Shown: in pieces, positions 14,407-19,478 of the stretch
Numbering within the stretch: position 1 is the stretch's first letter
Layout: each line of letters begins with the position of its first letter
Assembly: GCF_000789235.1 (NCBI RefSeq)
Contig: NZ_KN525716.1
Span: 3,454,100-3,518,099, forward strand
Length of the DNA stretch: 64,000 nt
Direction: 5' to 3'
Source of the DNA: Wocania ichthyoenteri Th78
GTDB lineage: Bacteria > Bacteroidota > Bacteroidia > Flavobacteriales > Flavobacteriaceae
Notes under the pieces: generated by a model
What the model was told of the DNA's origin: nothing
Seen by the model: only the letters and a program-made list of their open reading frames with translations
Database searches by the model: none
Program-made: the position numbers and the translations under genes

Positions 14407-14440
14407 CGTCATTACGAGGAGTGCAACGACGCGGTAATCT
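14407..14440. repeat. Dispersed palindromic repeat, cgtcat...ggtaatct family
   Basis: A single copy of the commonest short repeat in the window. It starts cgtcattacgagg and ends gacgcggtaatct. It lies immediately after the barrel gene stop, before DUF1287. Related copies are at 15.75, 19.18, 41.16, 46.17, 48.34 and 49.67-49.91 kb. Confidence 0.75.
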
Positions 14441-14463
14441 TTAAAATTGAAACTTATACTTAT

Positions 14464-18176: not shown

Positions 18177-19478
18177 TTAATCATAAATCAAATACTTCAC
18201 TCTAATCCTTTTAAAAGCAATTAAATCGCTTTGCCATGTTTCTTTAATAACTTCTTCGCTTAAACCAGCTTCAATTTGTTTTTGAAGTTTTTCAGTTCCA
18301 GCATGTTTTGTAAAGCCACTAGTAAGAAAAAATAGAGATTTATCAGTTGTGTTTTTATAAGCTTTTATAATCCATTTAAGTGTCATAATGCCCTTAATTT
18401 CTTCATCTTTTAAATCTTCTCCATAACAAAGTTCGTTTTTATGTTTAGGGATTTTAGCACCAAAATTAGTAACAGGCGTATAAGTAAACTTAAGATTTTC
18501 TTTGTCTAAAAAGGGTGCGCCATAGCGTTGAAACTGAAATTCCGTACCACGACCAGCATTTACATTTGTGCCCTCAAAAAGCCCTAAACTTGGGTATAGT
18601 TTTATAGATTGATCGTTTGGTAAATTTGGCGAAGGCCTTATTGGTAAGCTATAAAAAGTGTTGTGTGTATAATGCTTAACAGGTATGATGACGATATTAC
18701 ATTTTAAATCGTTTTCTAGCCATTTTTCGCCATTTATCATGTGTGCATATTCGCCAATAGTCATACCGTGTACTAACGGAATTGGGTGCATACCTAAAAA
18801 ACTTTTGTTTTCAATCTCTAGAGTAGGGCCATCAATATAATGTCCATTTGGGTTCGGTCTATCAAATATTATAAGTGGGATTTCTGCTTCAGCGCAAGCT
18901 TCCATAACATAGTGCAATGTAGAAATATAGGTGTAAAAGCGAACACCAACATCTTGAATATCAAAAATCATAACATCTAAATCTTCAAGTTGCTGTTTTG
19001 ATGGCTTTCTGTTTTTTCCGTGAAGTGAAATAAGAGGTAAATTGGTTTTAGTATCAATATCATCTTTAACATGCTCACCTGCATCGGCAGTACCACGAAA
19101 TCCATGTTCTGGCGCAAATACTTTTTTAATATTAATATTTAAAGCCATTAAAGAATCAACTAAATGCGTGTATTCGTCATTGCGAGCCTGCACTGAGCGC
19201 AGTCGAGGTTTGGCAATCTGTTCGTTATCAAGTGCTTCATTTTTAAAAATAACAGAAGTCTGATTCGCAACAACACCAACACGTTTGCCTTTAAGTAATG
19301 GTAAATAGTTTTCAGTTTGATTAGCACCAACAATAATTTTTTTGTCATCCTGAACTTGGTTCAGAATCTCATTATGATTAGTACTCGAAGAATCTTTAGA
19401 TCTCGATTTACTTCCACAAGAAATCATGATTAAAACAAATAATAAAACTGTATTTTTGAAAACATTAAACGACAACAT
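18177..19478 (-). CDS. NamZ/DUF1343-family lipoprotein with two in-frame repeat insertions
   Basis: This 433-residue DUF1343 protein belongs to the family of NamZ, an exo-beta-N-acetylmuramidase acting on peptidoglycan fragments. It has a lipoprotein signal ending MISC (Cys 21) and the family core: KRVGVVANQTSV, VFAPEHGFRGTADAGEHV, MIFDIQDVGVRFYTYISTL, IIFDRPNPNG and HGMTIGEYA. Two segments are foreign to the family. Residues about 37-46 (NEILNQVQDD) and about 84-102 (DNEQIAKPRLRSVQARNDE) are translations of dispersed repeats at 19344-19370 and 19175-19223. Both keep the frame open. The second splits the expected junction between ANQTSV and THLVDSL. The start lies five bases from the divergent LolE-like gene. 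Confidence 0.88.
   Translation of the reverse strand: MLSFNVFKNTVLLFVLIMISCGSKSRSKDSSSTNHNEILNQVQDDKKIIVGANQTENYLPLLKGKRVGVVANQTSVIFKNEALDNEQIAKPRLRSVQARNDEYTHLVDSLMALNINIKKVFAPEHGFRGTADAGEHVKDDIDTKTNLPLISLHGKNRKPSKQQLEDLDVMIFDIQDVGVRFYTYISTLHYVMEACAEAEIPLIIFDRPNPNGHYIDGPTLEIENKSFLGMHPIPLVHGMTIGEYAHMINGEKWLENDLKCNIVIIPVKHYTHNTFYSLPIRPSPNLPNDQSIKLYPSLGLFEGTNVNAGRGTEFQFQRYGAPFLDKENLKFTYTPVTNFGAKIPKHKNELCYGEDLKDEEIKGIMTLKWIIKAYKNTTDKSLFFLTSGFTKHAGTEKLQKQIEAGLSEEVIKETWQSDLIAFKRIRVKYLIYD
19175..19223. repeat. Dispersed repeat inside a coding sequence
   Basis: A copy of the cgtcattgcgag...ggcaatctg repeat, which is otherwise intergenic in this window, lies within the NamZ-type gene and is read in frame as residues DNEQIAKPRLRSVQARNDE. 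The middle (cactgagcgcagtcgagg) resembles a second repeat arm, so the element may be composite. Confidence 0.8.
19344..19370. repeat. Second dispersed repeat inside the same coding sequence
   Basis: A copy of the gtcatcctgaac...ttcagaatctc family, with an internal inverted repeat (ctgaac/gttcag), is read in frame as EILNQVQDD in the linker after the lipobox. A related copy lies at 46707-46732. Confidence 0.75.

Follow-up and report, generated by a model that had tools for sequence, protein, structure and literature searches.

Two dispersed palindromic repeats, here called F2 and F1, were confirmed to lie in frame within a NamZ gene of Wocania ichthyoenteri Th78. The gene is located in the window, namely, the whole 64,000-nucleotide stretch of DNA that was analyzed. 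The reading frame was open through both repeats, related genes were empty or differently occupied at the same sites, and repeat matches were clustered in loops of the host proteins. In our judgment, the in-frame copies are very probably the result of an influx of REPs that is filtered by the tolerance of protein loops.

Host gene and inserted repeats

The features of the window that bear on this finding were as follows.

18177..19478, minus strand: gene for a NamZ-type exo-beta-N-acetylmuramidase lipoprotein, host of the inserts, 433 codons and a stop
19343..19372: F2, putative CGTC-type REP with a TGTC tag, an 8-bp stem with one mismatched pair, and a CTCAT tail
19175..19220: F1 repeat, composite, CGTCATTGCGAG ... 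GGCAATCTG, residues 87-101
19191..19210: F3 repeat core, nested in the middle of F1, with 2 mismatches to the F3 search pattern
14407..14442, plus strand: F1 copy, in no ORF of at least 100 aa
15747..15782, plus strand: F1 copy, in no ORF of at least 100 aa
46167..46259: two oppositely oriented F1 copies, outside any ORF of at least 100 aa
48341..48373, plus strand: F1 copy, in no ORF of at least 100 aa
49716..49879: two oppositely oriented F1 copies plus an F3-like copy (16-base core, 2 mismatches), outside any ORF of at least 100 aa

As the original prediction had stated, the ORF at 18177-19478 was open over 433 codons, with dispersed repeats present at both places. Pfam domains PF07075 and PF20732 were both matched over nearly their whole profiles, and many columns of the protein were invariant and common to 27 homologs. 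Two additional NamZ-like genes were found in the same genome (3.95 Mb, G000).

The F2 element, which reads TGTCATCCTGAACTTGGTTCAGAATCTCAT on the plus strand, encodes (N)EILNQVQDD(K) at NamZ residues 37-45, in the linker between the lipobox and IIVGAN. The F1 element, which can also be given as CGTCATTGCGAG ... TTGGCAATCTG, encodes QIAKPRLRSVQARND in the loop between TSVIF and YTHLVDSL. The predicted split between ANQTSV and THLVDSL was found, but it had been ascribed to the segment at 19344. As NamZ is on the minus strand, the splitter is the element at 19175, which is second in the protein and first in coordinates. The segment at 19175 had also been taken for one repeat; it is an F1 repeat, but a composite one, because its middle is a copy of F3. 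In a sister species (L047), F1 was present without the nested F3.

In the AlphaFold model of NamZ (28 sequences, mean pLDDT of 74), values below 50 were obtained at residues 1-45 and 82-99, ranges that contain or overlap both inserts, and also at the insert-free stretches 130-136 and 225-231. In the solved homolog 4jja_A, the aligned blocks on either side of the loop insert are separated by two residues.

Copies and structure of the repeat families

In the window, CGTCATTGCGAG occurred eight times at ≤1 mismatch, compared with 0.03 expected from shuffles. A general repeat finder reported F1 as one two-copy family among the 20 listed. F2 had a single window copy at ≤3 mismatches, and its other copies were located elsewhere in the genome. 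Copy numbers in the whole genome were obtained by pattern searches. At ≤3 mismatches, 29 copies of F2 (14 forward and 15 reverse) and 46 copies of F3 were counted, together with eight copies under the strict F1 pattern, and the reversed-pattern control gave 0 in each case. Thus, the predicted recurrence of both segments was borne out. At least four repeat families (F1 to F4) were found in the genome, and the copies examined lay mostly outside long ORFs. The seven other F1 copies of the window were outside any ORF of at least 100 aa. Four F2 copies were gathered within approximately 4 kb (C1:2136039-2139862), one of them being the copy in an aminotransferase gene.

The F2 stem was supported by covariation. 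Over eight stem positions in 29 copies, 217 of the 232 pairs were Watson-Crick, a number reached in 0 of 2000 column permutations (mean 199.5, maximum 210). Joint changes occurred at the third pair (C-G, G-C, or T-A) and also at the second and fifth. The F2 consensus folded into an 8-bp stem with a 5-nt loop (z -3.8, equaled by 0 of 200 shuffles), and the copy in NamZ itself showed a weak DNA fold (z -1.5). The DNA folds of one F1 and one F3 example were no better than shuffles (z -1.2 and 0.3). The tag was CGTC in 19 copies and TGTC in eight, that is, in 27 of 29, with one TGTG and one GGTC; because GTC is within the search pattern, only the first base of the tag is free evidence. Directly after the stem, CCA was found in 0 of 29 copies, while 22 had CNCAT, of which 13 had CTCAT.

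In-frame copies in other genes

Ten F2 copies were in frame in long ORFs recognized by Pfam, nine of them internal and one C-terminal. Four more copies (L009, L016, L017, and L033), in which the long ORF starts inside the repeat, were excluded from this count. The hosts were NamZ, a methylmalonyl-CoA mutase with MeaB and B12-binding domains, an AMP-binding enzyme, a methyltransferase, a class I/II aminotransferase, homocysteine S-methyltransferase, BshC, PRA isomerase (called TrpF), and a class I tRNA synthetase with two F2 copies, which appears IleRS-like. Although the F2 consensus has three stop-free frames among six, the ten copies were read in the RHAELVSASH or EILKQVQDD frame, and the hydrophobic VMLNLFQHL frame was unused.

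In the case of F1, two of the eight strict copies lay inside long ORFs, one in NamZ and the other in a second mutase protein. For F3, five of the 30 copies examined (of 46) were in ORFs of at least 100 aa. The in-frame hosts were the methyltransferase that also carries F2 and the following proteins.

L213, L214, L217, L223, same genome: F3 hosts with LeuRS editing, TruB, Tex, and FGAR-AT (PurL) domains

In a methylmalonyl-CoA mutase protein (L041), F1 and F4, a fourth repeat (SVIPAKAGIQ), were both in frame. The stretch with F4 was equally long in three relatives, one of which matched F4 at five mismatches, with no match in the other two.

When the best F2 copy was taken from each of 30 other genomes, two of the 30 were inside ORFs of at least 120 aa. 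Consequently, the high in-gene share in W. ichthyoenteri is not general. One of the two was in a similar mutase, apparently, by eye, at the same site.

Empty and occupied sites in close relatives

Nine gene segments of W. ichthyoenteri were compared with those of the same-genus genomes G006 and G149 and of G125, wherever a match was found. In the IleRS-like gene, a clean 21-residue insertion, absent in three relatives, corresponded to an inverted F2 pair.

C1:1638901-1638959, same genome: inverted F2 pair in the IleRS-like gene (L029/L030)

The TrpF site held F2 in W. ichthyoenteri and an F1 pair in G149 and G125, and it was empty in G006. In the aminotransferase, F2 lay on opposite strands in W. 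ichthyoenteri and G006, approximately five residues apart. The C-terminal tail of homocysteine S-methyltransferase was aligned with F2 in four species, with 1, 1, 7, and 8 mismatches (L022 and L248-L250); thus, an element may provide a protein with its C-terminal end. For BshC and the second mutase protein, the gain over the relatives was just 0-3 residues. Accordingly, either host sequence was replaced in some events or a loss is concealed by the alignment, and pure insertion does not describe every case.

NamZ and TrpF across Flavobacteriaceae

NamZ was found in 143 of 149 family genomes. The set that was scanned consisted of 112 genes, namely, 30 with loci, two more from the genus, and 80 taken one per genome, the last being chosen as best matches, so that the most divergent genes were left out. 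Sixteen repeat matches were obtained, 13 in the linker (12 of F2 and one of F3, in L057) and three in the loop. Linker and loop make up 10.1% of the scanned residues, and the remaining ~90% contained 0 matches. The counts of 13 and 3 were identical with alignment-based and cruder anchors. Across rows, the linker held F2, F3, or nothing, being without a repeat in 99 of the 112 genes at the same thresholds. With half-element patterns, F1-like loops were additionally found in L055 and L100.

The W. ichthyoenteri gene, that of G125, and those of three same-genus species formed one group (support 100/99.5), in which F1 was present in the loop of the first two and absent in the other three. A tree made without the linker and the loop required nine changes for the 12 F2-bearing rows, and forcing these rows into one clade cost 459 log-likelihood units (p-AU 1.5e-32), with the group named after the tree had been viewed. 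In three of the 112 rows of the tree (L058, L093, and L132), the anchor was misplaced, their sequences beginning too far upstream. The patchiness of F2 on the tree suggests repeated gain and loss. According to the original prediction, the same residues in unrelated genera would speak against a repeat. Such residues were found for the linker element, and the repeat identity stands nonetheless, because F2 is dispersed in 64 of 149 family genomes (≤2 mismatches, about one genome per genus; reversed control, 0) and patchy on the NamZ tree.

A separate set of 80 named NamZ loci on genome contigs, many of them distant, gave two with a repeat match at the same thresholds, in Wocania arenilitoris (F2) and Pontimicrobium aquaticum (F1 head). 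In the NamZ linker of P. aquaticum (L369), F2 was split by a 21-nt F3-like piece in the apical loop of the hairpin, which parallels the F3 inside F1 in the window gene.

TrpF, which was found in 138 of the 149 genomes, was selected as a second case since the W. ichthyoenteri copy carries a repeat. The scan comprised 111 genes, that is, 110 of the 138 and the gene of G149, which was added by hand because its repeat was already known; all genes with a match split at the loop were taken on purpose. In total, 21 of 23 matches, in 15 of 111 genes, were in the loop that joins helix 3 to strand 4, which represents 9.9% of the scanned length, and a few of these matches were one element caught by two patterns. 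Without the W. ichthyoenteri gene and G149, 18 of 20 matches were in the loop (13 of 109 genes). Mononucleotide shuffles gave four matches in 2220 sequences, and with looser thresholds and a wider segment, 21 matches were inside the segment and nine elsewhere. In the model, the insert was located between the helix at 83-90 and the strand at 102-108, and the solved homolog 1dl3_A had an 8-residue gap exactly at the insert. The loop hits belonged to different repeat families within one genus.

Comparison with known repeat systems

The original prediction knew of no named equivalent in this family of bacteria. This view was incomplete, as CGTC-tagged REPs are a named superfamily reported from five phyla, including Bacteroidetes (Di Nocera, De Gregorio and Rocco 2013, PMC3733652). 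The comparison below refers to the sections of that paper used here. According to them, these REPs have stems of 8-9 bp and loops of 4-5 nt, and most, though not all, of their 3-nt tails fit CCA. In-frame intragenic units are described, insertions in linkers or loops being possibly neutral; genes for tRNA pseudouridine synthase B are among the hosts, and truB carries REPs or RPEs in Rickettsia and Stenotrophomonas. In recB of two Xanthomonas species, different REPs lie at about the same site. CGTC-1 is equated with Rickettsia RPE-6 and CGTC-4 with RPE-4, while RPE-1 is a longer insertion (PMC3733652).

F2 resembles the CGTC REPs of these sections in its unpaired CGTC/TGTC end, its 8-bp stem starting with AT, and its 5-nt loop, so that its consensus is within the described sizes; in-frame intragenic units and the lack of a transposase association found are also common to both. 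It may differ from them in its tail, which is mostly CNCAT and never CCA. Moreover, CGTC REPs are mainly HH dimers, whereas F2 formed two close inverted pairs (4 of 29 copies), a count in which weaker partners can be missed; in the table of that paper, such pairing is a tendency and not a criterion. In tag, stem, and loop, F2 appears to fit the CGTC-tagged REPs, and hence its kind is already known. F1 and F3 share the tag, but their single examples do not have the simple 8-9 bp stem fold, and they were filed as tag-sharing repeats rather than CGTC REP members.

Like RPE-4 and RPE-6, the present repeats are short palindromes that lie in frame within genes whose function is known; Rickettsia belongs to Alphaproteobacteria, and the likeness rests on the CGTC classification in the sections of PMC3733652 used here, not on sequence comparison. 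Judging from sequence, the prediction of translated in-frame repeats in tolerant places, comparable to the Rickettsia palindromic element, is supported. GTAG REPs, which are thought to be moved by RAYT transposases (PMC3733652), are likewise small dispersed palindromes, and a Y1_Tnp protein is encoded in the genome. Unlike in the GTAG REPs of those sections, the tag of F2 is CGTC/TGTC, and no F1-F3 copies were matched in the 3.2-3.4 kb around each Y1_Tnp locus.

The present case also differs from the CGTC REPs of the cited sections in that the same ortholog loops are occupied in many genera. A literature search for in-frame palindromes in Bacteroidetes and Flavobacteriaceae led to the CGTC/GTAG paper and, by title, to Rickettsia papers, with nothing on these repeats among the matches listed, and the matches listed in a search with the peptide and repeat letters looked unrelated by title. 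These searches brought to light no earlier account of the same loops being occupied in many genera or of families being exchanged at a single site, and the repeated occupation of orthologous loops is considered new here.

Origin of the in-frame repeats

In the explanation that we favor, short palindromes of the CGTC-REP kind would have come to lie in frame in NamZ. Repeats would arrive widely, and selection would remove the copies that break the frame or the fold. To survive in a gene, a copy would have to keep the frame, use a stop-free frame, and lie at a tolerant protein site. In NamZ, the tolerant sites would be the linker behind the lipid anchor and the loop after the strand ending in TSVIF. 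Since both are predicted to be flexible, repeats could be gained, lost, and overwritten in different lineages. We infer that the inserts are translated by read-through and that the peptides are neutral. The prediction had also seen in the repeats a possible source of new peptide; extra residues are indeed encoded, and the sequences give no sign of the peptide doing anything.

As for the mover, a transposase could act in trans, or copies of the repeats could recombine with one another. Two Y1_Tnp genes were found, one for a 184-aa protein (L084:1270-1824) and a second match with two stops (L083), and the F1-F3 patterns gave no match in the 3.2-3.4 kb around each of the two loci. The linker F2 was directly before (I/V)VGAN in 10 of the 12 F2-bearing rows, which may be closer than loop tolerance alone predicts. 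The near-identical positions in NamZ and the exchange of families leave room for a more directed process.

Such a process could be targeted exchange, in which repeats are swapped, either because their shared ends are homologous or because an enzyme prefers certain sites, and an occupied loop stays a landing site. This is possible, with the balance of probability against it. It agrees with the TrpF site, which varies among F2, an F1 pair, and nothing within one genus, with the opposite orientations of F2 in the aminotransferases of W. ichthyoenteri and G006, and with the finding of F3 inside F1 in the window gene and of an F3-like piece inside F2 in Pontimicrobium. However, clustering is predicted by loop tolerance alone too, and neither a donor event nor an enzyme was seen. 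We suggest only tentatively that particular ortholog loops are standing landing sites at which REP families are repeatedly exchanged, directed by element ends or an enzyme. If so, these bacteria would draw again and again on a common stock of hairpins for the peptides in the surface loops of essential enzymes.

It is rather unlikely that F2 entered the NamZ linker in one ancient insertion, was inherited vertically, and was lost or eroded in the genera without it. A shared codon register immediately before (I/V)VGAN in 10 of 12 rows and an eroded-looking series of linkers, such as EILKSAQNEK and EVLNKIENDS, are consistent with one insertion, and many parallel losses are conceivable. Against these stand the rejection of a single clade and the nine changes on the tree, for a group named after viewing it, and sister rows without a recognizable F2 copy. 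In addition, near-perfect palindromes occurred in the separate branches L052, L066, and L127, and the element of L127 was several residues further from the VVGAN motif. Codons for the same residues were identical in 191 of 239 cases compared with 157 expected; this test is biased, because the rows were picked by DNA match, and it was set aside as evidence of reinsertion.

A role at the RNA level, with hairpins kept in coding sequence for mRNA stability or translation control, is very improbable. The mRNA strand of F2 folds at -10 kcal/mol (z -2.7, equaled by 6 of 200 shuffles) and its stem pairs covary over the genome copies, but such pairing follows from the element being a palindrome. Furthermore, the mRNA fold of the F1/F3 composite was no better than shuffles (z -0.19), that of the plain F1 of L047 had z -1.2, and most NamZ linkers (99 of 112) are without a repeat at the thresholds used. 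The reading of NamZ as a pseudogene in decay, with the inserts as debris, can practically be dismissed. The two additional NamZ-like genes would allow it, but the 433 codons are open, both Pfam domains are near full-length, and many invariant columns are common to 27 homologs.

Implications

In annotation, it should be noted that peptides such as EILKQVQDD or RHAELVSASH, which recur in unrelated proteins, derive from repeats. In-frame palindrome insertion, which is best known from Rickettsia, occurs in Flavobacteriaceae too, and its hosts in this family include aminoacyl-tRNA synthetases and biosynthetic enzymes. The loops of NamZ and TrpF, with repeats in many genera, constitute natural replicates. 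These replicates make it testable whether REPs choose their sites or are filtered by tolerance, and whether enzymes are changed by translated hairpins.
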